Shown: in pieces, positions 43,775 to 62,601 of the stretch
Layout: every line of letters begins with the position of its first letter
Numbering within the stretch: position 1 is the stretch's first letter
Origin: Muricea muricata
Taxonomy: Eukaryota > Cnidaria > Anthozoa > Malacalcyonacea > Plexauridae
Length of the DNA stretch: 64,000 nt
Direction: 5' to 3'
NCBI GenBank assembly: GCA_963855995.1
Contig: OY979723.1
Coordinates: forward strand, 10,926,713 to 10,990,712
Program-made: the position numbers and the translations under genes
The notes under the pieces: model-generated
Told to the model about the DNA's origin: nothing
Databases searched by the model: none
Seen by the model: only the letters and a program-made list of their open reading frames with translations

Positions 43775-44815
43775 GTATGATGGAAAATAACTCATTGTAA
43801 TTTTAGTTTGCAAACTGAAATTTGCAGACTGATTTTTGAGGGTGTGCGTCCGTAAAGTTTAGTTTTCATTTAGTCGTGAATATCTGCATCAAAGTGACCG
43901 ATGTGATAGAGTATGTACGTGCATGTAATTTGAATACAGCTCACAAAAGAAAAGGTAGATTAGAATATATTGCATCGTCGAGAATGACTTTGCTATGACA
44001 GTCACGACCAAATGGAAAGTAGGCTTAAGTTCTTCAGGGCACAACAGCTACTCGAAACAAATTTGGTGCAGAATTATCTCAATTTTTTACTTGGCGCAGT
44101 TGTGGTGGTGTTTGTAATAATATTTGATCAGAAAAATCTTCTTCATTTTACAATGATTTTTTAAAAGCATCCAAATTAAAATACTAAACTACACAAGGGT
44201 GTAATACAATAAGATAAGGTCGCACGAAAATCTAAAAACTGTACATGTTGTCTTTCAAGATGACGTAGAACTGGCGTAGATTGATTCGAAACAATGATTT
44301 GGTTAATGTACTTTACGCCTTCCCTATGTTCTGCATTGTTCAAATTTAACGACTGCCTTTTGTCTGTGTCATTTAACCTTGAGAACTTAAAAGGCATATT
44401 GATATTTCATATTTGCTTGACGAGAATTACGTACAGGGGTCACGTGAAATTCATGTGACTAAAATCACGAAGAACATGATGCACTGAATTCTAAAGCTTT
44501 TTGTAATTGTTCTCCTTCATCGAACCCATTACAACAAGCGACAACGAAAATCTTTGCTTTTATCAATGAGAAATAAAATATAATTATAGAATATCCATCA
44601 GAAGACAATACAAAAATTACAGTCAATGAAATATTGATTAATCGTTTTGACAAAGATATCGCACATATAATATTAAGATAACAAATAAATCAAGAATAAA
44701 CGTTCTGATAAGACGAGCTTGCGAAATGTATCTAGCTAAAAAGATTAGCCTTACGCTGTCTTATAAGCTTCACGAATCCATAGAAACGTCTCCAGAACTT
44801 AATTGTCAAGGTTGA
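43726..44815. repeat. Segmental duplication copy A (FANCD2 exon 17 end plus K1 3' flank)
   Basis: Sequence from GGCATGCTGAGTGC in exon 17 through to the last codons of kinase K1 is repeated at 47,019-48,065 with a shift of about 3,295 bp and high identity. It includes the last 49 bp of exon 17, its splice donor, part of intron 17 and a dispersed repeat with CACAAAAGAAAAGG. A possible + strand ORF at 47,790-48,035 is broken by an indel in this copy and is unlikely to be a gene. Confidence 0.9.
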
Positions 44816-46065
44816 ATGGTGATGTCATCTTCGTCTCTCTCGGTTACGATTATCACAGCGTAATTATTTTTTTGTAGCGCGTCCGTGAAGATATTGTCGA
44901 CATCTGTATCGTCTTCCACTTCATTGTAAATCTTTTCACGTCCGTGAATCATAACTTCGTGGCGAAGAATTTGGCGGTCGGCTGCAACCTGCATACGATC
45001 TTGAATTTCCGCTTTTAATGCGGACAGGGTGAACTCGTTTAAACTGCACAAACGTGATTTTTCCTGATTATCTTTTGCTATAAAGCTCACGGCTTTCATT
45101 CGCGATACAGCTGTTGGCGGTGCGTCGCGCTTTGAAAACATGTACTCCTTAACGATACCAGCACTTGGACGCTTGGACGGCTCGTGTTGGAGTAGCGCGT
45201 TTAGTACGTTGCCTAACTTCTCGTCGTCTTTGTGATGTATGTGTGTCCTTACGTCAAGCTTGCCTTTTATTATTTGCTCCAACTCATTGTTGAGAACATC
45301 AGTGCTTACGTTGGGGTAACGACAAATAAAGTACAACACTACTCCTGCACTGTAAACATCTACTCTGAAATCATATGTATTTGTCTTAATCTCGGGTGCC
45401 AGGAGATGATTCTGCTGATCCTCCTTTCCTAATGGCGTTAGTTTTTCATATTGTCCCACAATTTCATTTCCAATTAGATCAAGGTCTATTCCAACGTGTC
45501 TCGCACGTCCAAAATCGGCGATCTTGACATGAATATCACTAATGCGTCGTGGATTTGGGTTCATTATGAGAATATTGCCGGGGTGAATATCGCGATGTAC
45601 CCAGTCGATTGAATGGATATAAACTAGGCCATTTAAAATTTGCTCAAATACTTGTTGATAAAATCGCGGTGGGCCTTCAGCTTGGATAATTGCAGGGCCA
45701 CCAATTTTGTTCCTATAGACGAACTTTTCTAAGTTTGACGAGCACAGTTCCATTTGGATACAAAGTCGTCTGTCGTTGCCAAAATCTACAAGCCAACTTT
45801 TGAAATACTTGATAATATTTGGAGTTTCTTGCTTTCCCATCTTCATGAGAAGTTCCAGCTCTCGTTTCGGATATCTTGGTTGTATCTTAAAACCGTCAAT
45901 GGACATGACTTTTATGGCATACTCTTTACCTGGTTGATCTTTGCGAGTCACTGCGTAAACTGTACCAAAGGCGCCTTTACCAAGTTGACCGTCAAGGTCG
46001 TATCCTCTATCAGCAAAGGAGTGTTTGATTGTTTCCCATTCACTCGAATTAGTCTGGTCAGCCAT
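44806..46065 (-). CDS. K1: PERK/GCN2/IRE1-like Ser/Thr kinase with C-terminal PB1-like domain
   Basis: Intronless reading frame of 419 residues. I start at MADQTNSSEW because the same MADQTN opens K3 and the remnant at 50,247, although the frame runs 17 codons further upstream. Kinase motifs are complete: glycine loop GKGAFG 29-34, Lys52, Glu69, HRD 157-159 with HRDIHPGNIL, Asn164, DFG 184-186, APE 223-225, Arg299. NIIKYFKSWL and LCIQMELC recall eIF2-alpha kinases, while DVYSAGVVLYF recalls IRE1, so the substrate is open. No RNase (KEN) domain follows. Instead residues 341-409 (FTLSALKAEI to YAVIIVTE) have the look of a PB1 or ubiquitin-fold domain, a dimerisation or scaffold module. No signal peptide or membrane segment is seen, so probably cytosolic. 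Its 3' end lies in the duplication shared with K2. Confidence 0.88.
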   Translation of the reverse strand: MADQTNSSEWETIKHSFADRGYDLDGQLGKGAFGTVYAVTRKDQPGKEYAIKVMSIDGFKIQPRYPKRELELLMKMGKQETPNIIKYFKSWLVDFGNDRRLCIQMELCSSNLEKFVYRNKIGGPAIIQAEGPPRFYQQVFEQILNGLVYIHSIDWVHRDIHPGNILIMNPNPRRISDIHVKIADFGRARHVGIDLDLIGNEIVGQYEKLTPLGKEDQQNHLLAPEIKTNTYDFRVDVYSAGVVLYFICRYPNVSTDVLNNELEQIIKGKLDVRTHIHHKDDEKLGNVLNALLQHEPSKRPSAGIVKEYMFSKRDAPPTAVSRMKAVSFIAKDNQEKSRLCSLNEFTLSALKAEIQDRMQVAADRQILRHEVMIHGREKIYNEVEDDTDVDNIFTDALQKNNYAVIIVTERDEDDITIQP

Positions 46066-46116
46066 TGAATGTTGATGAATTTTATTGAAAACTAGCGATG
46101 CACTGACTATGAACAA

Positions 46117-47018
46117 TTAATATCTCACTCTAAACTGTCTAAAGCTTGAACAAAGCGTTCTTGAGTGGATTTGTCGTAGCAACAGTAAACAGTAATACAC
46201 CAGCAGTTCGAGGAAAATAGACAGGAAGTGACGACATATGACGTGCGCACCCACGCACAATATTTGAGGCAAGATATTATCAAGTTCACGTTAATGATGA
46301 GGGTTTGAAGGAGAGTATAGCTGTTACATATAAGATTACAGAACCAGCGACATGATAGTCTATATACACGGCGTATACGCTAGCGAATTTAGCCTGAGAA
46401 CAACCTCTTCACAATTCATTTCGTGTATTCAAATATGCAGAATTGATATTAGAGCTGGAGTCGTATATGAGCTGACGTAACAACGGAGTCGGTGATATTT
46501 CGTCTTTATTCCAAAAACATTGTCATACCAATAGGTTTAAAAAAAATAACAAACAAATTGTGGTGTATATATACAAACTTCAGTCTTGGCAGGATCAGTT
46601 AGCCGATCAAGTGAAGCACATTGAAGGAATGAATTATCTCATGAAATCTTACAAAAATATTTAAAATGAGATTGTTTGCTAGCTTTGAGTCCACAATTTG
46701 ACACTGGCATTTTGTGCTTTATGAGTAGCACTTCTGGTATAAGCAACTGATTAGGATTAAACAACAATAATCTGATTTCTAGGGGGACACACTTTTTATG
46801 TTTATTGTATATTTTTTACTCCCAATGTTACCTAATTTAATAATCCACCTAAGATAATCTGGTTGAATAAACTACAGATCCTCCTTAAATGAACTAGGAG
46901 GAATGTAGTTAAATTAATCTGAAAGTTGAACCAGAAATGAGGATATTTGCATGCGAGTTTGCAGAACTGCTAATATGAATATTATAAAATCTTGTTGCTG
47001 TGTTAATATGCTGTATTT
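46117..47018. other. Intergenic spacer upstream of K1
   Basis: AT-rich sequence between the 5' end of K1 and the second copy of the segmental duplication. The first bases share the K1 leader (GAATTTTATTGAAAACTAGCGATGCACTGA) with 50,258-50,300. I see no other gene or repeat I can name here. Confidence 0.5.
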
Positions 47019-48065
47019 GGCATGCTGAGTGCTTTGGCATTTCATGATGATGATGGCAGTATGATACAGGTATGATTGAAAATAACTCATTGTAATTTTA
47101 GTTTGCAAACTGAAATTTGCAGACTGATTTTTGAGGGCGTGCGTCCGTAAAGTTTAGTTTTCATTTAGTCGTGAATATCTTCATCAAAGTGACCGATGTG
47201 ATAGAGTATGTACGTACATGTAATTTCAATGCAGCAGAAGGTCATGGATCTAGACTATACCACATCGTCGAGAATGACTTTGCTAAGACAGTCACGACCA
47301 ATGGACAGTAGGCTTAAGTTCTTCAGGGCACAACAGCTACTCGAAACAAATTTGGTGCAGAATTATCTCAGTTTTTTACTTGGTGCAGTTGTGGTGGTGT
47401 TGGTAATGGTATTTGATCAGGAAAAGCTTCTTCATTTTACAATGATTTTTAAAAAGGATCCAAATTAAAATACTAAACTACACATAGGGTATGATACAAT
47501 AGGATAAGGTCGCACGAAAATCTAAAAATTGTACATGTTGTCTTTCAAGATGACGTAGAACTGGCGTAGATTGATTCGAAACAATGATTTGGTTAATGCA
47601 CTTTGCGCCTTCCCTATGTTCTGCCTTGTTCAAATTTAACGACTACCTTTTGTCTGTGTCATTTAACCTTGAGAACTTAAAAGGCATATTGACACTTGCT
47701 TGACAAGAATTATATACAGGGGTCACGCGAAATTCATGTGACTGAAATCACAAAGAACACTGAATTCTAAATATCTTTCTCCTTCATCTTTGCTTTTATC
47801 AATAAGAAATATAATTATAGAATATCCATCAGAAGACAATATAAAAATTACAGTCAATGAAATATTGATTAATCGTTTTGACAAAGATATCGCACATTAT
47901 ATTAAGATAACAAATAAATCAAGAATAAAAGTTGTGATTAGACGAGCTTGCAAAATGTATCCAGCTAAAAAGATTATCTGGCTTGCTCACCTCAATCTTG
48001 TTTTACGCTGTCTTATGAGCTTGACGAATCCATAGAAACGTCTCCAGAACTTAATTGTTCAGGTT
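47019..48065. repeat. Segmental duplication copy B with FANCD2 pseudo-exon
   Basis: Copy of 43,726-44,815. It begins in mid-exon at 47,021 and carries the last 49 bp of FANCD2 exon 17 (LSALAFHDDD reading) with its GTATGA donor at 47,070, but no acceptor or exon start, so this piece cannot be spliced as exon 17. It ends inside the last codons of K2, which therefore uses a different reading frame from K1 for its final residues. Confidence 0.9.
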
Positions 48066-49031
48066 CAATGGTGAGTTTTTCTCTTCAGTCGATTCATTTC
48101 GCACCGGTTGTGTGGGAAACATAAATTCCTTGGCTTCGAGGGTTGAGAAACGTCCGTTTGGATCATCTTGAATTAAATTCTTGATCAGGCCGCTCAACTT
48201 TTCGTCATCCTTGTGAAATAAACGTTCCTCCACTTCAAATTTATTTTTCTTGAGATCTGTTAGTTCCTCAGACCATCTCTCGTTATCCGCGAGGAAGCGA
48301 CTGATAAAATACAATACCATGCCGGCGCTGTAAACGTCGACCTTGAAATCGTACGTATCGGTCAAGAGCTCTGGTGCCCTGAAACTGACATGTCTAGAAA
48401 AGCAAGATACCTTCTCAAGTTTTGGGACGATTGTCAAACCCACTGTTGTAAATGTCTCTATTTGAATATGTCTCGCAAGTCCAAAGTCCGCGATCTTAAT
48501 ATGTATATCGCTGATTTGCTTCGGATTCTGATTGACGACTAGGATATTCCTTGGGTGAATATCGTGGTGCACCCAACGTATCGTGTGGATGGCAACTAGG
48601 CCGTTCAATATTTGTTCAAATACTTGGCGATAAAATCGCGGCGAACCTTGAGCTTTGATTATTTCAGGGCCGCCCATGTCGTTGCCGTAGATAAAGCTAT
48701 ATAGGTCGACGGAACACAATTCCATTTGAATGCACAATTGTTCTACGTCGCCCGTTTGCAGTATCCAAGATTTGAAATATTCGATGACATTCTGTTTGAA
48801 CTCTTTTGACAGATTTAAGGTGATGAGCGCTTCGAGTTCCCGTTTTTGATATTTCGCCCTTTCTTCTTGTAGAGGCAGAATTTTTATGGCATAACTCTTT
48901 CCTTCCTCGCTGCACTTCGCTTTAAGAACCTGGCCGTATGCGCCTTTACCAATGGGTTTATCGCATACACAGTGCAGTTTGCGTTGAAAAGCTAAAGCAT
49001 TCTTTATCTTTATAAACTCCGGATCACTCAT
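48051..49031 (-). CDS. K2: kinase-only paralogue, HHD catalytic loop
   Basis: Intronless, 326 residues, closest to K1 (CIQMELCS, PRFYRQVFEQILNGLV, DIHIKIADFG, YDFKVDVYSAG shared or nearly so). Glycine loop GKGAYG 28-33, Lys50, Glu65, Asn162, DFG 182-184 and RAPE 218-221 are present. The HRD motif reads HHD (155-157): the Asp is kept but the Arg is lost, as in kinases not activated through loop phosphorylation. The protein stops about 20 residues after the kinase fold, where K1 would continue into its PB1-like tail. The truncation coincides with the end of the segmental duplication, which supplied a new stop codon. Likely catalytically competent but without the tail. Substrate unknown. Confidence 0.85.
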   Translation of the reverse strand: MSDPEFIKIKNALAFQRKLHCVCDKPIGKGAYGQVLKAKCSEEGKSYAIKILPLQEERAKYQKRELEALITLNLSKEFKQNVIEYFKSWILQTGDVEQLCIQMELCSVDLYSFIYGNDMGGPEIIKAQGSPRFYRQVFEQILNGLVAIHTIRWVHHDIHPRNILVVNQNPKQISDIHIKIADFGLARHIQIETFTTVGLTIVPKLEKVSCFSRHVSFRAPELLTDTYDFKVDVYSAGMVLYFISRFLADNERWSEELTDLKKNKFEVEERLFHKDDEKLSGLIKNLIQDDPNGRFSTLEAKEFMFPTQPVRNESTEEKNSPLNLNN

Positions 49032-49118
49032 GGTAGTTTATCGAAATAGACCCTCTCGTATGTAGGCTGAACGAAGCGTTTTCGTGTGATATGTGCACGA
49101 TTCCACGAAACGGTATTA

Positions 49119-49335
49119 TGACTCATTTTGTCGCATATTGACTGACCTTGTAATTATTTATTATATGCTGTGAAAAGAACATCAATGTCATAGATAGTGT
49201 CCGCTATTCTGTCGTTGTTTAATAATTAGGTTGGTAGGAAAGCTCGACAGCACTACATCCTCTAGACGCATGAGACAATAAGTTGTGGAGGTCTAGTTCT
49301 GTTAGGAATATTTCGAAATTGTCTAAATTTTAGCC
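49119..49335. repeat. Duplicated kinase 5' flank, copy 1
   Basis: About 215 bp (ATGACTCATTTTGTCGCATATTGACTG to TTTTAGCCCACA) repeated at 50,442-50,660 with a 1,323-bp shift and few differences. It lies upstream of K2; its partner lies between the kinase remnant and K3. It was probably carried along as the kinases duplicated and may hold shared promoter elements, but I recognise none. Confidence 0.85.
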
Positions 49336-50193
49336 CACAAAATTCGGCGTTCGCCCCCCCAAAACAATGACCCTGGCTACGCCACTGCGCAGAAGGGGCC
49401 AATTTCGTAATAGTTCATTACATCGTTTTTCGCTTCAGCCGTATTCATGATGTATCTTTAAAAAAGAAATTTATGTTCGGAACTAATGTAATATACAGCA
49501 AATATAAATATCGGCGAATATTCCTTTCTTTGGCTAAACGGTGTTTTGTTTGCTTGTAGTCATGTGACGTGCAAATAAAGTGATGTAATTCTAAGAAGAG
49601 CAAAATTAATGGCGAGATACAAGGTCATAAAGTTCAAACACAATAGCTGTATGATAATTCACAAACTTTACGGACAAAAGCACTGATGTGGATCAAGTAT
49701 ATGACTCACTCGGTCAAAAGTTTAACGCGGTTGTTCATATAATCTCGGTTACCTGGACGATATGAAAGCAGGATACTTTTGACGTATTGAAAAAGCCATG
49801 CTTGATCATTCATACAAAATTGAAGGTTTATAGTCAAATAAACCGATTATAAATTGTTGTGTTTTTCATGATATACACAGCGTGATGGTTAAAAATGATT
49901 GATTAATAAGCATTTTAAATTTTCAAAGGAAACGCGTAGCAACGCCAACCTTGGCCAAATATAGAATTTTGTTATTCTTTACCCCATTGTTTGCATTGAA
50001 ACATTTAAGTATCAGTCCAAAACAATGCAATCTTTCTTCACTTTTAAAATTCGGTCACTAATATAATATTTCAGTTCGGTTTAGAATTAGAAAACATGAC
50101 AACACTCAAACATATATGCCTGTGGGGTGAGACGAAACATTGTTCATCTTCTTTCTTTGCAATTATAAGCTTCGTGAAGGAATTCTTTGCTAG
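49336..50193. other. Intergenic spacer between K2 flank and kinase remnant
   Basis: AT-rich sequence with GACCCTGGCTACGCCACTGCG near 49,370, a phrase typical of transposon ends, but no matching second end found. No gene recognised. Confidence 0.4.
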
Positions 50194-50300
50194 CTAAGGC
50201 GCCTTTTTGATTTTTGCCCATTCACTCAAATTAGTCTGGTCAGCCATTGAATGTCGATGAATTTTATTGAAAATTAGCGATGCACTGATTATGAGCAACT
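50194..50300 (-). pseudogene. 5' remnant of a K1-like kinase
   Basis: Starting at 50,247 on the minus strand it reads MADQTNLSEWAKIKKAP and then stops, matching the first 14 residues of K1. The DNA shows why: the region between the N terminus and the glycine-loop GGCGCC is deleted, fusing the two and putting TAG in frame. The leader (50,248-50,300) matches K1's leader almost base for base. Nothing of the catalytic domain follows. Confidence 0.8.
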
Positions 50301-50441
50301 ATTATTATTTATTGAAAACATTTTAGGAATTTTGATTGGTTAGAGCTAAAGGTGAAATCGTCATATCTGCTTGGTAGTGAAAATAAATATACATTATGAG
50401 TCATTTTGTCGTATATTGAAAACAAATATACGACATTATGA

Positions 50442-50660
50442 CTCATTTTGTCGCATATTGACTGACCTTGTAATTATTGATTATATGCTGTGAAAAGAAC
50501 ATCAATGTGATAGATAGTGTCGGCTATTCCGCCGTTGTTTAATAATTAGGTTGGTAGGAAAGCTCGACAACACTACATCCTCTAGACGCATGAGATAATA
50601 AGTTGTGTAGGTCTAGTTCTGTTAGGAATATTTCGAAATTGTCTAAGTTTTAGCCCACAT
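50442..50660. repeat. Duplicated kinase 5' flank, copy 2
   Basis: Partner of 49,119-49,335. It is preceded by a local second copy of its own first 30 bp (50,395-50,425, ATTATGAGTCATTTTGTCGTATATTG). The sequence from 50,661 to 51,065 shows no gene I can support; two overlapping minus-strand ORFs there have no recognisable motifs. Confidence 0.85.
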
Positions 50661-51065
50661 TCAAATCTCATGCTTGAGTTGACTCGACTATGATGGATTC
50701 ATGGATTATTACCCCAGGAACCAATACAAACCGATAACATAAAAAAAGACTGAGAATAAATCCGAATTTTGTAGGATCTTGAAACTCGGGATATGAATAA
50801 AAGCAAGACGAAAACGAGTCGGTGACTCGTCTTGACACAGCAGAATGACCTTCGGGTGAAAAACGAGGGTGTCAATGCTATAAAATCTCGTTGCGATGTC
50901 ATGAAACTCGTGATTCGTGCATGCTCCCAAATCCCAATAACGAAGACTGTGACCTGTTTGAGGAAATAGTTTAATGTAATAAAAATACTACATGGAAATA
51001 TTCAGTCAACTTACGGTTGTATGTACATGTTATAATTGCTGTCAGTGCATATATTAAGATATAAA

Positions 51066-51557
51066 TTATATTGTCTCATTTAAAGACTCCGTAGCTACAT
51101 CTCCACAACTCATGTATCTGTGTTTCGCTTCGCTATCATCTTCTATCTCAGTCACAACTATGACAACATCGTCCCCTTGGCGTATGGTGTATTGGAAAAT
51201 ATTTTTGACGTCTTCGTTGTCTTTTATTACAACAAGTTTTAGTTCACCGTTAATTTTAGCTTCTTGTCGAAGTTTACATGCTTTGACTTTAATACGTCGT
51301 TTAATTTCTGCTTTCAATGCGGACAACGTGAACTTCTTTAAGTGGCACAGACTAACGTCCTGTTCGCTTTCTTTTCTTGCATAGAACTTGGTCCTCGGTG
51401 TTTCTTGCGCATCCGTCGAGTCTTTCTCTTCGGGGTACATGTACGCCATAACGTCCTTAGCGTCGAGTCGTTTGTGTGCTTCCTTTTGAAGCATATCTTT
51501 TTTCGGACTCTTCAACTTCTCGTCGTCGTTATCATTCGAATTAGTCTGGTCAGCCAT
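51066..51557 (-). CDS. K3: kinase-deleted PB1-like domain protein
   Basis: 163-residue open frame. It starts MADQTNSNDN like K1, then jumps straight to DDEKL, which in K1 is residue 280, at the end of the kinase domain. It continues through a degraded C-lobe end (LQKEAHKRLDAKDVMAYM against LLQHEPSKRPSAGIVKEYMF) into an intact PB1-like tail (FTLSALKAEIKRRI to DDVVIVVTE). About 270 residues of catalytic domain are missing with the frame kept. If expressed it would be a tail-only protein able to pair with K1 or K4 and act as a decoy or regulator (inference). It may also be a decaying copy that happens to be open. Confidence 0.7.
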   Translation of the reverse strand: MADQTNSNDNDDEKLKSPKKDMLQKEAHKRLDAKDVMAYMYPEEKDSTDAQETPRTKFYARKESEQDVSLCHLKKFTLSALKAEIKRRIKVKACKLRQEAKINGELKLVVIKDNEDVKNIFQYTIRQGDDVVIVVTEIEDDSEAKHRYMSCGDVATESLNETI

Positions 51558-51644
51558 TGAATATTCTTGGATTGAAGTGGAATCTACCGATCCATCTAAA
51601 AATCAAGCACGAGAGCAAAATAATTTTAATACATTGAAAATCAT

Positions 51645-51995
51645 CCCTTGATGATTTAAGGTGGTCCACTATTAAAAATTTCTAGTTTCCAATGCAAGCA
51701 GACTGCAGTTTTATGTTGCTATGGCAGCTTAAAAAATACATTTTTGATTCTTCAATATGTTTATAAACGAACTTTCTTTCAGCCTCATTTAATTAATAGC
51801 ATAAATTCAAACTAACACCTAAAAACAAGGTTTAATGCATTTATTCAAAACGATGCTTCGAAGTTTACAAAATATACAAAACTACGATGCGACCATAGAT
51901 TAAGGATACATAGATGTGCAACTGGGGATACTTCGCCTATGATTTTGTTCTCTCACGGATTACGTCATATCCACACGCATTTCTGGCAAGTACAT
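51645..51995. repeat. Dispersed repeat R, copy 1
   Basis: About 350 bp from CATCCCTTGATGATTTAAGG to CTGGCAAGTACATG, repeated at 55,508-55,869 with high identity. Both copies end at the same base and both run directly into a LINE coding fragment, though a different part of the LINE in each case. Confidence 0.85.
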
Positions 51996-52560
51996 GTTTA
52001 TCGCAAAGGTGCATGTTTATCAGCAATTTGCAGAAATATTACTTTCCATCTAAGCCAAGCTAAATTGGGATCAGTGCAGTGATGGAAGTTACAAAAAGCT
52101 TCTCTTAGATCGCTTTGAAATTCAGTGGAATTGAAGTGCTTGAATTTTCTTGTCTCTATTAATTTAGGATTTCCCTTAGGAATACTTATTTTCCTGCAAA
52201 TATAAAGTTTAACCAGGTCTATCCCCATTTCCATGACCCATTTCGTGTCGTCAGTTTTAGTAAGTATAATATCTAAAAGAGTTTGAGAACAGTTAGTTGT
52301 CCTGCTTTGCTTATTAATATGTTTTAAAGCTGATAAATGTTTATTAAGTCTTTCATCGTTTTAATACTAGGGTTAACACAATCTTTTTTTAACAGATCAC
52401 AGTTAAAATCACCGGCTATGATTATTTTTTGTTTTATCATCCATTTCCCGACGAAATTTTTCAAAATATTTTAGAAATTCAATATTTGAAACTGGTGGGC
52501 GATACCAGGTTGAAACTGAGATTGGTTTGCCCATTCCAGATCTCAGCTGAAGTGAAGCTC
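51996..52560 (-). mobile_element. LINE fragment L1 (CR1/L2-like endonuclease C-terminal part)
   Basis: On the minus strand reads RASLQLSSGMGKPILVST, WYRPP, IIAGDFNCDLL, TTNCSQTLLDIILTK, YICRKISIPKGNPKLIE, FLQIADKHAPLR. This is the second half of a non-LTR retrotransposon endonuclease (EEP fold) plus the start of the linker. The catalytic SDH signature expected before YICRK is replaced by GIDLVKL. L2 and L3 share this lesion, so all three descend from one dead insertion. Frames are interrupted and no reverse transcriptase is present. Confidence 0.8.
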
Positions 52561-52628
52561 TTTGCATTTCTTGACTTCTTCAATGTTTTCAACTTCAACC
52601 TGCAATGCCTCCACTTTAATTTCAATTT

Positions 52629-53369
52629 TCAAAAACTCTTTAACAAAGATTGGCCTGCATAGTACTAATTGTACATAGTTACCATACAATACATACCATT
52701 AGTGGTAAATTCTTCCGTGTTCGATTCGTTGTCATCAGTCTCATGTGGCTTTATATTTGCAGTACTTGCAGGAACGTTCGTATTATCAGTGGAAGACAAA
52801 CTATACAAAAATAAGACACATACGTCAAATTCTAACCTAATAATCTCTCAAACCATTTCAGAATTCAGCTCATTTAGCAACTATTATACTTTTGACCCAT
52901 GGAAAACCTTACATCTGCTCTTTCCATTCCTTGACTTCTTCCATATTCTCAATTTCAACCTGCAATCCACCCACTGTAATTCCAATTTGGAAAAACTCCT
53001 TTTCCAAACGTTCTTTCAATCGTCCACTTTCAACGTCGTCTACTACTTCCAAAAATCTTTTGTCCGTAAAACATTCCAGCAACACGCGTAGACAACCAGG
53101 TTTAATTTCTTTAACCTTTTGATCATCTCGCTCACCACCAAGAGCTAGAGTAGTAGCGGCGTCAATTCTTTTTGCTTCTAAAGCATATTTCGTGTAGAAG
53201 GCGCCTAATGTAACAGCAGTTAGACACACGTCTCTCACTGCCTGAGCATTTTTACCTTTAATGATCATTGATAGCGCACGGGGGACTTTTAATCTAAAGG
53301 ATGCCATGACAATGTTTTTTTTTTCTGAAATGTAAAGTTTATTCGGATCAGTTTTACAAATAAGGTATA
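52629..53369 (-). CDS. U1: unrecognised coiled-coil-like protein, 3' exons
   Basis: Three exons with AG/GT borders and agreeing phases: exon A about 53369 (or 53324)-52913, exon B 52800-52697, exon C 52654-52629. Exon A encodes IIKGKNAQAVRDVCLTAVTL, FYTKYALEAKRIDAATTLAL, LRVLLECFTDKRFLEVVDD and a Glu/Lys-rich helix LQVEIENMEEVKEWKEQ. Exon B is Asn/Thr-rich. In U2 exon C repeats the helix motif, but here one A is missing from TTAAAAGAG, so the frame ends at QSLLKSF and U1 lacks the second helix. The start is not settled: Met at 53,307 is possible, but the match with U2 extends upstream to LICKTDPNKLYIS. I do not recognise the family. A second copy (U2) lies 8.9 kb away. Confidence 0.65.
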
Positions 53370-53649
53370 CTCAAAAATCAAAACAAAAAGAAGTAGTCAA
53401 TTTTCTTGTGTGCAACTGATCATAGTGAAATAGGTGAATCATTTGTGGTCAATTTTACTACGAATGGTTGTTATTGTGTCAAATATGTTGCAATATTTAT
53501 TAATGTTAGAACAAGTGTTGCTAATGAACAATATTGCTACCTATTTCCCCCCCCCCCCCCGTGTGTAGATTTTACACACGCATATTTTCTCGCATGAACG
53601 CATTCATTATGCTGGTCCTAAATTGCCTGTCACATCTACTGGCCATGAT

Positions 53650-53704
53650 CATCGTTTTGTAATGTCAGCTTTGCACTATCCTTAGGATCACTCGTATTGG
53701 CCAT
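53650..53704 (-). CDS. Candidate first exon of U1
   Basis: ATG at 53,704 opens MANTSDPKDSAKLTL before a possible donor CA|GTAGAT near 53,640. The same start (MANTSDPKDSA) is present at 62,565 upstream of U2. The phase of this donor does not fit exon A directly, so another exon would be needed between, or the exon ends elsewhere. Weakly supported. Confidence 0.3.
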
Positions 53705-53740
53705 GCGTTCGATGGCAAAATATTTGGCCTGTTATTAATA

Positions 53741-53885
53741 CAGGGTTCGTACAAAACTTGAATGTGCTTAAATGTCCTTAGCATTATTTAACAACTCTTT
53801 TTAGTCCTTGAATTTCAAGATATATAGCCTTGAAACTCCTTGAAACGTCTTTGAATTTTACTCTTCTTGACATGCACGAACCCTG
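53741..53885. mobile_element. 145-bp MITE with TTAATA target duplication, absent from the duplicated copy
   Basis: Inverted ends CAGGGTTCGT and ACGAACCCTG, AT-rich interior with CCTTGAA repeats, flanked by TTAATA on each side (53,735-53,740 and 53,886-53,891). The homologous stretch at 62,590-62,615 reads straight through TATTATTAATAGCAACATATG with a single TTAATA, giving a clean empty site. Insertion therefore came after the U1/U2 segmental duplication, or was lost precisely from the other copy. Confidence 0.85.
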
Positions 53886-53891
53886 TTAATA

Positions 53892-54262
53892 GCAACATAT
53901 GATTGTTTTGCCCCAATGAAAGTTGATCAAAAGTTGATAGCACCATTCTTTTCGCACATATTTATCCACGTTAATTCAACATTTTTTATCCTCTGAGTCT
54001 CCGACATTTATGCATTATTGGAGACTATTAGATCGACGTTTGCAAGCGGCAAACCTCAGACTGAGGATCAGATACCTTTGTAATGTAATTATAAGAAAAT
54101 TATCAACCGTCAATATATTAAAAAATCTCCGCACGGAGACACAGTACAGAAACCTTGTTGTTCAATGGTTTTTCTGTCACAGCTTAAAGTTAGACGTTTG
54201 CGGTTAACAATTTCACGACTAGGCATGCCGACCACAATTAATTAAGCCTACACATCAAAAAA
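53892..54262. repeat. U1/U2 segmental duplication, upstream part
   Basis: Continues the duplication of the U module. GCAACATATGATTG through CGACTAGGCATGCCGACCA matches 62,602-62,990. No gene recognised here. Confidence 0.85.
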
Positions 54263-54264
54263 CG

Positions 54265-54480
54265 AACAACCTGTTTTGGCCTGATGGAAACAGCATTGAA
54301 CAATGCTTTGCTGCCCACATTGTTAAAAGTTGTCAACAATATTGTTCAACGTTGTTACACCTGGTTGCTGGCTAGTTCAGGCTCAACAACTTGTTCAGTA
54401 TTGTTGACAACATTGAACAATGTTGGCAGCAAAACATTGTTCAGTGCTGTTTTCATCAGGCCAGAACAGGTTGTTCATTT
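54265..54480. mobile_element. Foldback element with ATTGAACAATG palindromes
   Basis: Arms of about 85 bp pair around a 40-bp spacer. CCTGTTTTGGCCTGATGG at the left corresponds to CATCAGGCCAGAACAGG at the right, and inner parts share AACAATG, TTGCTGCC and GTTGTCAACAATA. Relatives occur at 58,490-58,705 (whole), 55,115-55,170 (one arm) and 62,985-63,020 (one end). Confidence 0.75.
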
Positions 54481-54487
54481 TTGTCTG

Positions 54488-55110
54488 TGTAGGCGTTGGT
54501 CTCGGCCAAGACGCAAGTGTCAGCAGTATCGCCCATGAGCGCTGCTGCAACATGTGACACCAGAAAAACCTCAGAAATAGGGCGAATTTAAAACTTTGTC
54601 ATTCTCGGCGGGCCAAAAGGTAGTCAAAGTTGACAAATCATTGAGTTCGACTAATTAGCCAAACTGCAGAGGCAGACTGTGGAACCTTGCGTAACTCGAT
54701 AATTCAACCTGATAATTCAAATTTTTCCCTGCTGAGCTTGTCTCATCGATCACGTGACGCTCAGTTACCTGGCAGGAGGCAGATGCGTAACAGCGGGAGT
54801 TAAACCGCTCCCCTTTTTTTATATGTATAATATTTGTACACTTATAAACCTACTTTTACTGTACTTATACTTATAAGTGTTCGCAATAGCTTTGCATAAT
54901 AAGCTTGCCAACAACTTGTAATGAAGTTGTTGGAAAATGTTAACAAGATGGACGAAGACACTCATACACTAAACAGCACTGCTTGAACTTTGCTACAGCT
55001 AGGTTTGTTACGACTTCAGTGCGGTGTGGTGCGCCAGACTTATATTACTTATATTATTATATGGAATGTTGTACTGCTGGTGTTCGCCAAAGTATCTTGA
55101 GAAACTTGCT
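54488..55110. repeat. Dispersed duplication D, long copy
   Basis: GTTGGTCTCGGCCAAGACGC to GTTCGCCAAAGT is repeated at 57,137-57,620. This copy has about 150 extra bases (54,735-54,885) relative to the other. No gene supported. Confidence 0.8.
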
Positions 55111-55289
55111 CGCTGGCAGCACAACATTGTTCAATGCTGTTTTCATCAGGCCAGAACAGGTTGTTCATTTTTGGCTGTGTACTTTCATTTGGTCGTAACT
55201 GTCGTAGCACAGCCTCTCTCGACGATGTGATTATTGTGATATAGGTTTAGATCTATCTTTTCTTTTGTGGGCTGTATTCAAATTAGTTA

Positions 55290-55503
55290 ATTAGTGAGAT
55301 AAAGTATAATAGCTATTGAAGCACAAAAATAGAAAATCGCTCAGAATGAAACGCTAACCAATCAGCGTGGTGCAAAAATGTCAGTTCCACAATAAGCATA
55401 CAAGAATAAACGTAAAATTGGAAAAGTCAACGAATCAACTTTTATAGTAAACTGTAATAGTCATACACTGACACACAGCATTTACCCAGCCTTTACACAG
55501 CAT
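55290..55503. repeat. Dispersed repeat E, copy 1
   Basis: GAAAATCGCTCAGAATGAAA through GCCTTTACACAGCAT is repeated at 56,300-56,493. It follows an inverted piece of the CACAAAAGAAAAGG repeat (55,180-55,290). No coding sequence. Confidence 0.8.
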
Positions 55504-55507
55504 TCAT

Positions 55508-55869
55508 CCCTTAATTATTTAAGGGGGTCCACTAGTAAAAAAATTCTAGTTGCCAATGCAATCAGACTACAGTTTTAATATGTTGCTATGGCAGCTTAAA
55601 AAAACGTTGTTGATTCTTCAATATGTTTATAAACGAACTTTCTTTCAGCCTCATTTATTTAATAGTATAAATTCAAACTAACACCTAAATACAAGGTTTA
55701 ATGCATTTATTCAAAACGATGTTTTGGAGTTTACAAAATATACAAAACTACGAATATTGAGGCGACCATAGATTAAGGATACACAAGGAACTGGGAATAC
55801 TTCGCCTATGATTTCGCCGTCTCACGGATACGTCATATCCACATGCATTTCTGGCAAGTACATGTGAAG
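55508..55869. repeat. Dispersed repeat R, copy 2
   Basis: Partner of 51,645-51,995, ending at the same CTGGCAAGTACATG and followed at once by LINE reverse transcriptase sequence. Confidence 0.85.
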
Positions 55870-56220
55870 TGAGGTAGAACAAGTGCATTAAACATATTGA
55901 GTAGTATATAAACTCTATATTGATTTACAAACTGCTTTGCTCTTCTCAACAGAACAATAGACTGAAATTTTGTTACATTGAACATCATTATGTTCTTCCA
56001 CTTAATTGTTCATCAATAATGACTACAAGTACTTCCTTACTAGATACCTGCTGTATGATGTGATTACCAAAATTTATCTCAGGATTACTTGGAGATTCTT
56101 GAAGTCTCCATGTAGAGCCTATACTGACATGCACTCAGTTTTTCCCTCATTCAAAGTTAATTTGTTGGCATTTAGACATCTGTGCACATCCTCTAAGACA
56201 GTATTAGTCATGCTTTAAAC
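55870..56220 (-). mobile_element. LINE fragment: reverse transcriptase C-terminal part
   Basis: Minus-strand peptides LEDVHRCLNANKLTLNEGKT, ECMSV, EVLVVIIDEQLSWKN, LLRRAKQFVN and MFNALVLPHF match the region after the catalytic core of CR1/L2-type reverse transcriptases (typical pattern ANKLTLN, KTE, LGV.ID..L.W, YNALV.PHF). Frames are broken by stops. It may be the same family as fragments L1-L3. Confidence 0.7.
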
Positions 56221-56299
56221 CTCGCTGAATGATTTACCATGACAAGATAGGTTACTATCGTATTGTGAAGCAGTTAGGTCAAGTGGGCTGTATTAGACT

Positions 56300-56493
56300 G
56301 AATTAGTCAGATAAAGTATAGCTATTCAAGAACAAAAGTAGAAAATCGCTCAGAATGAAACGCTAACCAATCAGCGTAGTGCAAAAATGTCAATGTCACA
56401 ATAAAAGGATTGGAAAAAGTCAACGAATCAACATTTATAGTAAACTGTAATAGTCATACACTGATACACAGCCTGTACCCAGCCTTTACACAG
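56300..56493. repeat. Dispersed repeat E, copy 2
   Basis: Partner of 55,290-55,503, about 1 kb away in the same orientation. The stretch from 56,494 to 57,136 shows no recognisable gene. Confidence 0.8.
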
Positions 56494-57136
56494 CATGCTT
56501 CCATATCTAAACCTCGCTATCAGCAATAGCGCTGGACTATACGCGAGTGTCTAAGTACTGTAAAAACGACACGACTCTTTCAACTCGAATGTCGGGCGAT
56601 TGAGGCATTCACCTATTTACCGTGTATGAAAGTTTTTGAGATCATGATTTCGATAAATTGTATGCTTCAGACACTTCACGGTTGATTTTTGTCTCATATT
56701 ACAAAGGAAGTGTCTGCAGTTAGCGGTTTGGCGTTAACATCAATCTAAAGGAATCTTGCTAAGCTATTCCATATTCACCGAATAATCATTCACTTCTTAA
56801 CAAAATTTAACAGCACGACAAGGCTATACAAGTAGCTATGTCTATCTACATGGAATCTTTCACTTACTGAAACGATTTAAGCAGAATTCCAGGTTTCGAA
56901 TTCGTCGAATTTCGTTTTAAATGTCGATTCAGGTAGTGAGTGATCCATGTTTTGTGTACGTTTTATGTTCTACCAACACTTAGTTATGGATACTATCCCA
57001 TGTTGGGCTATCTTAAATGTGAAGTATAACCTGTCTTACAGAAGTAACATATATACTTACTTTCAAGGTGGAGCGGTCACAAATCACAACAAGATTACTT
57101 CAGTCTTAACTTCGTATGGCAACTGCGTTAACTATA

Positions 57137-57620
57137 GGAGTTGGTCTCGGCCCAGACGCAAGTGTCAGCGGTATCGCCCATGAGCGTTGCTACAATATCA
57201 CCTGACACCCCAAAAACCCTCAGAAATAGGGCGAATTTAAAACTTCGTCATTCTCGGCGGGCCAAAAGGTACTTAATGTCGAGAAATCATTGAGTTCGAC
57301 TAATTAGCCAAACTGCAGAGGCAGACTGGGGGACCTTGCGTAACTCGATAATTCAACCTGATAATTCAAATTTTCCCCTGCTGTGTTCGCTATAGCTTTG
57401 CATAGTAAGCTTGCCAACAACTTGTAATGAAGTTGTTGGAAAATGTTAAGAAGATGGACGAAGACACTCTGCTGACAAGTTTGAACAGCATTGCTTGAAC
57501 TCTGCTATAGTTATGCCTATAGGCTTGTTACGACTTCAGTGCGGTGTAGTGCGCTTGACTTATATTACTTATAGTATTATATATAGAATGTTGTACTGCA
57601 GGTGTCCGCCAAAGTTTCTT
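57137..57620. repeat. Dispersed duplication D, short copy
   Basis: Partner of 54,488-55,110 lacking about 150 internal bases. The stretch from 57,621 to 58,489 has no gene or repeat I can name apart from a C-run near 58,270. Confidence 0.8.
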
Positions 57621-58489
57621 TAGTAGCGAGAAATTTAGCTGATCAACACATTACCAACGTTTCAAGTATTAAACTGTCATATTTTCATTTACTTTTGAGA
57701 GAGTGCTCAATGGATATGCACTGCATAATAATTTATTCATACGACTCAACAAATTCCACTAGGCGTCTTTGTTACTAACTAGTTTCGTACCACGAGATGT
57801 GGCACTCATGAGATAAAATGGCCTAATAACTATTCGTTAAAACTTACAATATTTCTGTACAAGTGAATTACTAATTGTTTTTCGTGTTCTGTAAATAGGA
57901 TTAAAATTTCAAGTCTCAATCACTCGTACAGAACTAGTTAAACCAATTAAACTATCTATCTATCAAAAAATTGTATCGTATTCAGTATCGCATTGCTTTG
58001 AGGTTCACTTCGCGGGGTACTGAGGTCGGTTGTCAGAAGTCATATAGCGATTTTTTGACCTGCCCAAAATAGCTAACATAGATCAATAATTCTATCTTGA
58101 ACTTTTGTTTTTATCAAGGCAATAGCTTTTCTGCAGTTGTATAGGGGTTTCTGAGCATTTTAACAACGGTTGAAACAGTTGCTGCCCGGTGGGTAAAGCT
58201 GTCCTACCTTCTCGAATAGACAGATACATTGCTTTCTATGTATTAAACAAAAAACAGTTTAAAAATCTCCCCCCCCCCCACCAAGGACACCCTCCCAAAG
58301 CCTTCGCTTTAGGTCTCGGCTGCAGTTATCGTATCCTTGCGCTGTAAATGGTTGTTAACTAGCTATGAAAGTGTGTTGGTAGAATGGTAGCTTATGTGCG
58401 CGTAGTATTGATTGACACTCCCTGGATACACAGTGGCCATCACCCCGCTGAGGTGCTAGATTAAGTACACTCCAAAACTGAAATGAACA

Positions 58490-58705
58490 AGCTGTATAGA
58501 GTTGATGAAAACAACATTGAACAATGTTTTGCTGCCCACATTGTTCAATATTGTCAACAATATTGTTCAGCATTGTCGAGGCTGAATTAGCCCGCAATCA
58601 GGTGTAACAATGCTAAACAATATTGTTGACGACATTGAACAATGTGAGCAGCAAAACATCGACAATGTTCAATGCTGTTGTCATCAACCTGAACAGATTG
58701 TTCAT
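58490..58705. mobile_element. Second ATTGAACAATG foldback element
   Basis: Arms with ATTGAACAATG, TTTTGCTGC and CAACAATATTGTT pair around a spacer near 58,590. Similar in design and sequence to 54,265-54,480. It lies just downstream of the 3' end of K4. Confidence 0.75.
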
Positions 58706-58810
58706 TTTTTTTTCTGTACAATGTATAGTTACAAGTGTAAGTTATTTTGAAATATTAAATCAGGAGTTAGTTCATGTTCTTGGCTTTATAGAGCTTACAA
58801 GGTAGAGGCT

Positions 58811-60438
58811 TTAGGCGTACATGTCCGATCGTGTTTCATCTAATACAACGATCTTCACTTTAATTCCTTTTTCCTCGGCGCTCTCAAACATCTCCTTGAC
58901 ATCTTCGTCAGAGTTTATGTTAATCTGTCCTTCCGTGCTTTCCGTGATTTGGACCAACTTTTTAGAGTCGAGTTTCTTGTTAAGGCAATGCCCTATCGCT
59001 TCTTTCAAACCAGCCAAGGTTATGTTATTGCCTGTCACAGAGCATCGATTCCAGATTGTCTCGCCTTCTTCTATGACTGAAAATTTCTTCTTTTCAGGAA
59101 CAATGGTTTCCGTAGGGTGCACGTCGGACGTTTGTATTTCTGACACAACGATGCGAATTTCCTGGCCTGGTTTTTCAGCACTTTGAAACTTCTCCTCAAA
59201 ATCTTGTGCATACGTTATGTTAACCAATTCTTGAACTGTAGTTTCTGTGGAGTTCTCGCTGGCTGACTTTTTTTCTGATACAATGGGGGAAGTTGGTTTC
59301 CGCACTTTCCAGGCACTTTTTTGCTGAGGCTCTATTGCTGCTTTTAAACTAGACAGGTTTAAGGTGTCTTCTTTTATTGAACGTCGATCCGAACTGCCGT
59401 CAACCGTGGACTCAGGATGTTCCTCGGGTTTAACAAGTTCTTGGGATTTAACATCTTCCCAGGGTTCACCAAATTCCCTGGCAATCTCCAAAGCCTCCTT
59501 AGCGGTCGGGCGATTTTCTCTCTTCTTCATAAGCAACTGGATTAGGCTCACTAAATGCTGATCGTCTTGATGACACAAATCGTCAGAACGACGCTCCCCG
59601 GCCTTAAACGCCTTGATCTCATCTTTCCATTGCGTCTTTTCTTCAAGGTAACGACTTAGAAAGTACAAGACAATTCCTGCGCTGTATAAGTCAACTTTGT
59701 AATCATAACATTTAGTTTTCAGTTCAGGCGCTCTAAACAGTTTGTTTCCCACATCGAATGATAACTCTTCCAATTCAACGTCGTCTGTAAGGGTTAGAGG
59801 ATCCAGAAGTTTCGAACGGATTTCCCGGGCCAAGCCAAAATCGGCGATTTTGACGGTAATGTCTGTAATTTGTTCTGGATTTGGATTCGCAATAAGAATA
59901 TTGCCCGGATGGATATCCCGATGAACCCACCCCGAATCGTGGATAAAACCTAGACCCTCCAAAATCTGCGGAAACACATGTTGATAAAATCGTGGAGGAC
60001 CTCGAGCTTTGATAATTTGAGCCTTTTCCAAATCTTTGATGGTGTTGTTATAGACGAAAACAGACAAGTTAACACGACACAGCTCCATTCGAATGCACAG
60101 ATATTGCCTTTCGTCGATGTTCATCGTCCATGAACCGCTATATTTGACAATATTCTCATGCGAATATCCATTTTCTTTAAGAAATTGTAATTCTCGTTCC
60201 CTGTACCTCGCCGTCGACGTCTTACCCTCGGTCTTTCCCTCGCCCTCGGACTTTCCCTCGCCCTCGGTCTTATCTTCCACAATAGGAAGAATTTTTAGGG
60301 CGTATTTCCCGTTGCTTGCTTTACCCTCCGTGTCTTGCGGCGGCAGCAGGTATTTGACTTGTATTAAACTGTAACTTCCTGTGCCAAGTTGCATTTCATA
60401 CTCGTAACCCCGTCGCTTTAAATCCTCTTTGAGTTTTT
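58811..60438 (-). CDS. K4: PERK/GCN2/IRE1-like kinase with two PB1-like domains
   Basis: Open frame with first Met at 60,394 (527 residues from there), but homology to K1 starts earlier: LKEDLKRRGYEYE precedes Met in frame, matching K1 around RGYDLDG. A good acceptor (ATATATCTTTAG) ends at 60,439 and no upstream ATG precedes the in-frame stop at 60,488, so a 5' exon is probably missing from my model. Counting from Met: loop GTGSYS 4-9 (third Gly is Ser), Lys34, Glu68, HRD 158-160 with HRDIHPGNIL, Asn165, DFG 185-187, RAPE 221-224. A Gly-Glu-Lys repeat insert (41-58) lies between beta3 and helix C. After the kinase come two PB1-like domains, about 345-418 and 457-517; the second reads ININSDEDVKEMFESAEEKG. 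No KEN RNase domain. Probably cytosolic. Confidence 0.85.
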
Positions 60439-60559
60439 CTAAAGATATATTTATCAGCTTTAAATTCGAAAACGTTTTTTTGCGAGGTCACATAATATAG
60501 GGGTTCAAGATCCAATCGTGGTATATTTCGGCAAGTTGGAGTCAAATTTTACAAAAAAA

Positions 60560-61435
60560 AATATTGAACTCATTTGCAGTATCTTTATCATCAGTTTTCT
60601 TATTTTGGTAAATATATGAGCTCCTTTATTGAAGTGATCTTAGATTTCTTGTTCAGTTATGATATTCCAGTTATCCTTACTATTAGTAGTATTTTCCAAA
60701 CTTGTTTTGTATTTTTTTTAATACCACGATTTACCTCATTTCTACATTTTTTACGCATTGTGATACACTGGGGAATTAAGGCTTACTGCTTTCTTTTTCA
60801 AATATTCCCTGTGATAACTCATACTTTTAATTTCGTTAGTTAGCCATGGCGTATATTCGCTCTTTAATTTTCTTATTCATAAAGGTGCATGTTTATCAGC
60901 AATTCAGAGAAATATTTCTTTCCATCTAAGCCAAGCTAAATTGGGATCAGTGTAGTGATTGAAATTACCAGAAGCTTTTCTTATAGATCGCTTTGAAATT
61001 CAGTGAAATTGAAGTGCTTGAATTGTCTTGTTTCTATTAATTTAGGATTTCCCTTAGGAATACTTATTTTCCTGCAAATATAAAGTTTAACCAGGTCTAT
61101 CCCCAATTCCATGACCCATTTCGTATCGTCAATTTTAGTAAGTATAATATCTAAAAGAGTTTGCGAACAGTTAGTTGTTCTGCTTGGCTTATTAATATGT
61201 TTTTGGAACAGATAAATGTTTATTAAGTCTTTCATCGTTTTAATACTAGGGTTAACACAATCTTTTTTTAACAGATCACAGTTAAAATCACCGGCTATGA
61301 TTATTTTTTGTTTTCATCATCCATTTTTCGACGAAATTTTTCAAAATATTTTAGAAATTCAATATTTGAAACTGGTGGGCGATACCAGGTTGAAACTAAG
61401 ATTGGTTTGTCCATTCCAGAACTCAGCTAAAGTGA
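60560..61435 (-). mobile_element. LINE fragment L2 (endonuclease part plus linker)
   Basis: Same family as L1 with the same GIDLVKL lesion, extending further 3': after IADKHAPL come KLKSEYTPWLTNEIKSMSYH and REYLKKKAVSLNSP, the linker before the reverse transcriptase, broken by several stops. It sits directly downstream of U2, whose stop codon lies in or at the LINE's RASLQLSS segment. Confidence 0.82.
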
Positions 61436-62240
61436 AGCTCTTTGCATTTCTTGACTTCTTCAATGTTTTCAATTTCAACCTGCAATGCCTCCACTTTAAT
61501 TTCAATTTTCAAAAACTCTTTTAACGAAGATTGGCCTGCATAGTACTAATTGTACATAGTTACCATACATTACATACCATTAGTGGTAAGTTCTTCCGTG
61601 TTCGATTCGTTGTCACCAGTCTCATGTGGCTTTATATTTGCAGCAACGTTCGTATTATCAGTGGAGGACAAACTATACAAAAATAAGACCCATACGTCAA
61701 ATTCTAACCTAATCATCGCTCAAACCATTTAAGAACTCAGCTCATTTTCAACTATTATACTTTTGACCCATGGAAAACCTTACATCTGCTCTTTCCATTC
61801 CTTGACTTCTTCCATATTCTCAATTTCAACCTGCAATCCCTCCACTTTAATTTCAATGTTCAAAAACTCCTTTTCCAAACGTTCTTTCAATCGTCCACTT
61901 TCAACGTCGTCTACTACTTCCAAAAATCTTTTGTCCGTAAAACATTCCAGCAACACGCGTAGACTATCAGGTTTAATTTCTTTAGTCTTTTGATCATCTC
62001 GCTCACCACCAAGAGCCAGAATAGTAGCGGCGTCAATTCTTTTTGCTTCTAAATCATATTTTGTGTAGAAGGCGCCTAATGTAACAGCAGTTAGACACAC
62101 GTCTCTCACTGACTGAACATTTTTACCTTTAATGATTAATGATAGCGTAAGGCCAACGTGTAATCTAAAGAATGCCGTGACAATGTTGTTTTCGTCTGAA
62201 ATGTAAAGTTCATTTGGATCAGTTTTACAAATAAGGTATA
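61423..62240 (-). CDS. U2: unrecognised coiled-coil-like protein, 3' exons intact
   Basis: Exon A from about 62,240 to 61,784, exon B 61,672-61,578, exon C 61,535-61,423, with AG/GT borders and consistent phases. Exon A runs LICKTDPNELYISDENN, IIKGKNVQSVRDVCLTAVTL, FYTKYDLEAKRIDAATILAL, LRVLLECFTDKRFLEVVDD, then LKERLEKEFLNIEIKVEG and LQVEIENMEEVKEWKEQ. Exon C repeats that last helix as LKEFLKIEIKVEALQVEI and ENIEEVKKCKELHFS, then TGA. So the C terminus has two related amphipathic helices joined by an Asn/Thr/Glu-rich linker. An unspliced 177-residue frame also exists but would end at the exon A donor. A candidate start, MANTSDPKDSA at 62,565, is not phase-matched. Family not recognised; neither membrane segment nor enzyme motif is evident. 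Confidence 0.7.
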
Positions 62241-62601
62241 CTAAAAAACCAAAACAAAAAGTAGTAGTTAATTTTCTTGTGTGCAACTGATCATGGTGAA
62301 ATAGGTGAATCATTTGTGGTTAATTTTACTACGAGTGGTTGTTATTGTGTCAAATATTTTGCAATGTTTATTAACGTTAGAACAAATGTTATATCGCTAC
62401 CTATTTATCCCCCCCCGTGTGTAGATATTACATAGGCATATTTTCTTGCATTACGCCCATTCATAATGCACCACTTAAATTGTCTGTCACATCAACTGGC
62501 CATGATCGTCGTTTAGTCATGTCAACATTCAGTGCACTATCCTTAGGATCACTCGTATTGGCCATGCGTTCGATTGCAAAATGTTTGGCCTATTATTAAT
62601 A

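Follow-up and report, generated by a model that had tools for sequence, protein, structure and literature searches.

An octocoral family of tandem kinases with PB1-like tails, probably placed beside or within the eIF2-alpha kinases

What kind of protein kinases lie in tandem on a stretch of the genome of the octocoral Muricea muricata, and what do they carry where their relatives carry a sensor? The stretch, referred to here as the window, comprises 64,000 nucleotides (bases 10926713-10990712 of contig C8, OY979723.1), and feature coordinates are given below as window positions. A preliminary description had seen in it kinases of mixed PERK/GCN2 and IRE1 character that end in one or two small PB1-like domains. 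We searched the assembly of this one octocoral genome (453 Mb, 74 contigs) with two of these kinases, K1 and K4, and found at least 11 loci of the family on four contigs, a number which is a lower bound. Ten of them have a kinase and one (K3) consists of a tail only. K1 to K6 lie within about 30 kb of C8, K7 is on C9, K8 on C6, and K9 to K11 are on C11.

Most of the family loci are single open frames. K1 can be read on the genomic sequence alone from ATG to stop without an intron, in contrast to the octocoral's own PERK, which is split across several exons. The window frames of K1, K2 and K4 match the Pfam Pkinase model with E values of 2.4e-32, 6.2e-33 and 3e-27, respectively. Just outside the window, on the same strand as K1 to K4, lie K5 (620 codons, two whole tails) and K6 (418 codons, one tail), and the frames of K5 to K11 terminate in the tail or just past it. 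A Pfam scan of five window frames at E up to 1 gave no match to a sensor, an RWD domain or the KEN nuclease (Ribonuc_2-5A), in keeping with the preliminary description. Its portrayal of the genes as tandem, intron-poor and fast-changing also holds, with single open frames in tandem and a nonsynonymous to synonymous ratio (dN/dS) of 0.47 to 0.80 for five whole-frame pairs; judged from sequence, purifying selection acts on some copies. As it had likewise stated, no family combining such a kinase with a PB1 tail is described in the literature that we searched (open-access texts and listings). Judged by that literature, the kinase and PB1 modules are each known, and the clade and the combination are new.

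The PB1 fold has the order beta-beta-alpha-beta-beta-alpha-beta. The tail of K1, the one of the 11 tails that was modelled alone, was predicted to have this topology with a predicted local distance difference test score (pLDDT) of 77.9, and the first 12 rows of its list of structural matches are all PB1 domains. NBR1 gave the best Foldseek matches and p62 appears in the VIA list, at about 10% identity; the closest solved folds include PKC-iota, MEKK2/3 and the MEK5 complex. By this model the tail is a PB1-type beta-grasp, and the proposal of one or two such tails is borne out for K1; K2 is tailless, and K4 has one whole and one truncated tail. The Pfam PB1 cut-off of 23.6 bits is passed by the tail of K8 (24.9), the second tail of K4 falls below it (18.3), and the remaining nine of the 11 tails gave no Pfam PB1 match. 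PB1 types for front-to-back pairing have an acidic OPCA core or a basic lysine in strand 1. On a hand-anchored alignment the core charge is -4 in PKC-iota, -3 in K10 and K11 and between -2 and +1 in the other nine tails, while near the end of strand 1 there is a Lys in eight of 11 tails and an Arg in the first tail of K5; the second tails of K4 and K5 have neither residue. Elsewhere in the assembly, a PB1-coding stretch that begins MTIVKIKVFYG is near-identical by eye at five places (L072-L076, on C1, C2 and C3), which points to a PB1 gene family that has expanded or else to a mobile copy.

Three trees were built in order to place the kinase domains, the last with 36 rows, among them nine K kinases, from a small panel in which this octocoral is the sole cnidarian. 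There the nine K kinases are united in a single clade (100/100), whose stem is long (1.3 changes per column). This clade adjoins human GCN2, HRI, PKR and PERK together with the octocoral PERK (93/94, not starred); these latter kinases are themselves grouped at 87/81. In approximately unbiased (AU) tests, joining the K kinases with the IRE1 group was marginally rejected (p 0.044), unions with the ankyrin-kinase-KEN group (0.025) and with HRI (0.026) were rejected, and joins with PERK (0.088), PKR (0.103) and GCN2 (0.178) were not rejected. On account of these tests an IRE1 origin is probably to be disfavoured, being weakly rejected, and the favoured position is either next to the eIF2-alpha kinases or within them. 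The K kinases therefore do not stand midway between PERK/GCN2 and IRE1 as had been suggested. The octocoral retains PERK (C5, 1.19 Mb) as well as IRE1, with exons 56-71% identical (C9, 1.87 Mb).

The ten K kinases were aligned with kinases of human and of the octocoral. All ten retain the catalytic Asp and Asn, the DFG-Asp, the APE-Glu, the helix-F Asp and the final Arg, and all nine that have an N-lobe retain the beta-3 Lys and alpha-C Glu. K8 reads DLG in place of DFG. The motifs listed in the preliminary description are all present: HRDIHPGN in K1 and K4, HHDIHPRN (HHD for HRD) in K2, and D-x-[YF]-S-A-G, including DVYSAG and DLYSAG, in eight of ten, with S-S-G in K6 and K8. The IQMELC and IRMELC motifs belong to LCI[QR]MELC, found in every K kinase (LCIQMELC in five, LCIRMELC in five), so that the LFIQMEF-type motif of eIF2-alpha kinases is present.

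Putting these observations together, we propose an octocoral family of cytosolic serine/threonine kinases from the eIF2-alpha-kinase branch, in which one or two C-terminal PB1-like domains replace the sensor and the clustering of tails activates the enzyme; we put the chances of this proposal at about even. By pairing among themselves or with adaptors that carry PB1, the tails would gather the kinase domains, which would then phosphorylate one another and be switched on. We infer activation by clustering, as well as the cytosolic location, catalysis and tail pairing, partly by analogy with the dimerisation that activates eIF2-alpha kinases and IRE1 and with the PB1 assembly of atypical PKC and MEKK/MEK5 complexes. 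The context, a tandem, quickly changing family in a genome with a large RNase L/IRE1-like expansion, would fit a role in stress or immunity. The 500 bp upstream of nine family members contain no heat-shock or NF-kB consensus, an interferon-stimulated response element (ISRE)-like match in one, and CCACG/CGTGG pieces of the unfolded protein response (UPR) type in eight, the last counted with no control; all this says little either way. A bolder version, which we regard as speculative and improbable, is a PB1-coded kinase network: the acidic-core K10 and K11 and copies with basic, less acidic tails, such as K6 and K7, would stack front to back into kinase-firing filaments, the tail-only K3 would cap or poison the stack, and the whole would operate next to the expanded RNase L-like genes, forming a layer of stress or antiviral response apart from PERK and IRE1.

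The proposal has to be weighed against the reading that the family is a fifth kind of true eIF2-alpha kinase, with PB1 tails in place of the sensor, recruited by adaptors and stopping translation as vertebrate PKR does. Their sister place in the tree and the unrejected joins with GCN2, PKR and PERK agree with it, as does BLASTP, in which the best human eIF2-alpha kinase outscores human IRE1 for all ten K kinases (for K2, IRE1 is not among the matches listed). GCN2 chains also lead the solved-structure matches of K1, but this likeness is not exclusive, because calcium-dependent protein kinases come higher in the list than HRI, IRE1 and PERK. The substrate surface speaks against this reading. 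Positions 451, 487 and 490, which contact eIF2-alpha, are T, T and E in all four human eIF2-alpha kinases; among the K kinases, seven have Asn, two His and one Gln at position 451, K10 has Ser at position 487, where the other nine carry neither Ser nor Thr, and none has Glu at position 490, allowing that the helix-G columns may shift by about one residue. Nor did any of the ten show the acidic kinase insert between beta-4 and beta-5, where they have only 7-10 residues; PMC2291453 gives 14-34 for PKR, and the human rows of our alignment are no measure here, being crystal constructs with the HRI insert left out. Since contacts 451 and 490 are absent in all ten and 487 in nine, eIF2-alpha is probably not the substrate, and an eIF2-alpha kinase function is unlikely. 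The octocoral, moreover, already has its own PERK, and we hold a fifth kind of true eIF2-alpha kinase to be unlikely. We consider it very improbable that the family descends from IRE1- or RNase L-like kinases that shed the KEN nuclease and acquired a tail. The helix-F motif is that of IRE1 and the at least 30 single-frame kinase-KEN genes of this genome are a possible source, but the AU tests and the BLASTP ranking both point away from such a descent.

The damage within the cluster raises the further question of whether most copies are pseudogenes, their open frames remnants of a once useful gene. The kinase is gone from K3, the tail from K2, the start and part of a tail from K4, and the N-lobe from K9; between K2 and K3 there is also a K1-like N-terminal relic. 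We nonetheless judge wholesale decay to be rather improbable; because the copies show damage, mosaics and a relic, the tandem family looks shaped by birth and death. The features in the window are collected in the table. The 3' DNA that K1 and K2 have in common, beginning about five codons before the K1 stop, is 84% identical over 947 bp while the kinases share half of their residues and are saturated at silent sites. Replacement of the K2 tail and 3' flank by recombination is therefore probably the simplest reading. Over 551 aligned codons K4 and K5 are 84% identical; the first residues and the start codon of K5 have no counterpart in K4, whose earliest Met is the one that precedes the glycine loop. 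The first seven codons of K1 (46045-46065) and K3 (51537-51557) are identical in DNA, and their tails are 41% identical in protein; the identical codons hint at recent exchange or strong constraint.

Table. Features of the kinase cluster in the window (window positions)
Feature	Position	Strand	Basis or remark
K1 kinase gene with one tail, 419 codons from ATG in one open frame	44806..46065	-	open frame 44806-46116
K1 kinase domain, catalytic residues kept	45130..46005	-	
K1 PB1-like tail	44827..45099	-	predicted fold and structural list
K2 kinase gene without tail, HHD in catalytic loop	48051..49031	-	open frame 48051-49037
K2 3' end and flank, homologous to K1 3' flank (43901-44822), probable tail-removing replacement	47196..48074	-	84% identity, 947 bp
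Relic of K1-like N-terminus between K2 and K3	50206..50298	-	tblastn 77% identity, E 3e-10
K3, lacking the kinase: N-terminus MADQTNS followed by C-lobe end and tail	51066..51557	-	open frame 51066-51602
K3 PB1-like tail	51135..51395	-	alignment; dN/dS 0.34 against K1 tail
K4, open frame of 558 codons; start lost, most of the first tail deleted, second tail whole	58811..60487	-	
K4 kinase domain, glycine loop one residue shorter than in K5	59471..60409	-	
K4 remnant of first tail, approximate limits	59130..59240	-	comparison with K5
K4 second PB1-like tail	58826..59095	-	Pfam PB1 E 0.0022, below cut-off
LINE (long interspersed nuclear element)-like endonuclease fragment, upstream of K4	60981..61313	-	open frame; weak Exo_endo_phos_2 match, E 0.045, below cut-off

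The kinase-KEN expansion was seen with human IRE1 kinase-KEN as query. Of 103 matches, 30 continue past the kinase into KEN within a single open frame (query end at least 345); C9:4.33-5.15 Mb holds 18 of them, and the others include C7:5.71-5.72 and 11.70-11.72 Mb. The two that were scanned with Pfam, L049 and L050, have ankyrin, kinase and Ribonuc_2-5A domains, the architecture of RNase L, and L055 shows many ankyrin-like repeats by eye over more than 2100 codons. At L057:168-4025 (C9) there is a 1285-codon ankyrin-kinase-KEN gene, probably a pseudokinase because its catalytic loop reads GVVITPLH where its relatives read HRDLKPEN; frames of 1284-1285 codons recur at seven C9 places. Many more IRE1-like matches at C12:7.1-9.9 Mb and C9:8.5-9.3 Mb come in two nearby pieces, the N-part of the kinase and its C-part with KEN, and are apparently clustered two-exon genes. 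Kinase-KEN fusions with ankyrin repeats in eukaryotes, and KEN expansions in Oikopleura and monocots, are described in PMC3710099. On RNase L in cnidarians or corals, the accessible parts of the literature searched gave nothing beyond an introductory mention.

Some further observations concern the surroundings of the cluster and the assembly. A satellite array with a unit of 194/388 bp (about 163 copies of 194 bp) occupies window positions 1-31266. A repeated open frame of 143-179 codons occurs in four copies (window 52909-53370 and 61780-62319; L043:595-1134 and 2697-3128); the window copies, the two that were scanned, gave no Pfam match over cut-off, lie near LINE fragments and are possibly part of a mobile element. 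Contig C74 (19,292 bp) is the mitochondrial genome of the assembly. By eye it has a 987-codon MutS-like gene with an HNH-like end, and cox2, atp6 and cox3 on the strand opposite cox1 and nad1; ARAGORN found one tRNA, for Met. To our knowledge a mitochondrial MutS of this type occurs in octocorals only. A second cox1 copy, with a stop and an adjoining cox2 piece, at C1:38414782-38416095 on the largest contig is either mitochondrial DNA copied into the nucleus or an assembly error.

If tail clustering indeed activates these kinases, they would make up a fifth branch next to the four eIF2-alpha kinases, with an oligomerising tail for a sensor and a rewritten substrate surface, in an animal that retains ordinary PERK and IRE1. 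This suggests a wider diversification of the eIF2-alpha/IRE1 kinase superfamily in cnidarians than the vertebrate picture shows, and the natural swaps would be material for asking whether clustering alone activates such kinases. Among known systems, GCN2, PERK, HRI and PKR are the nearest human kinases by BLASTP and tree and share L-x-I-[QR]-M; unlike them, the K family has a PB1-like tail and no sensor, lacks the acidic insert and the contacts, and in most members reads HPGN for KPSN. With IRE1 and RNase L, a group expanded in the same genome, it shares the helix-F SAG (SSG in two of ten), but it has no KEN nuclease and the tree weakly rejects a common clade. Atypical PKC, MEKK2/3 and MEK5 also join a kinase to a PB1-type domain; in these the PB1 stands at the N-terminus of a kinase from the AGC or STE groups, whereas here it is C-terminal and in one or two copies. 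The PB1 domains of NBR1 and p62 resemble the tail in structure, and these proteins are autophagy receptors without a kinase. Perhaps comparable in kind are fish PKZ and the duplicated PKRs, in which, as PMC2291453 describes them, an eIF2-alpha-type kinase was likewise duplicated within a lineage and its regulatory module swapped; unlike the K family, they carry Z-DNA- or dsRNA-binding domains and phosphorylate eIF2-alpha.

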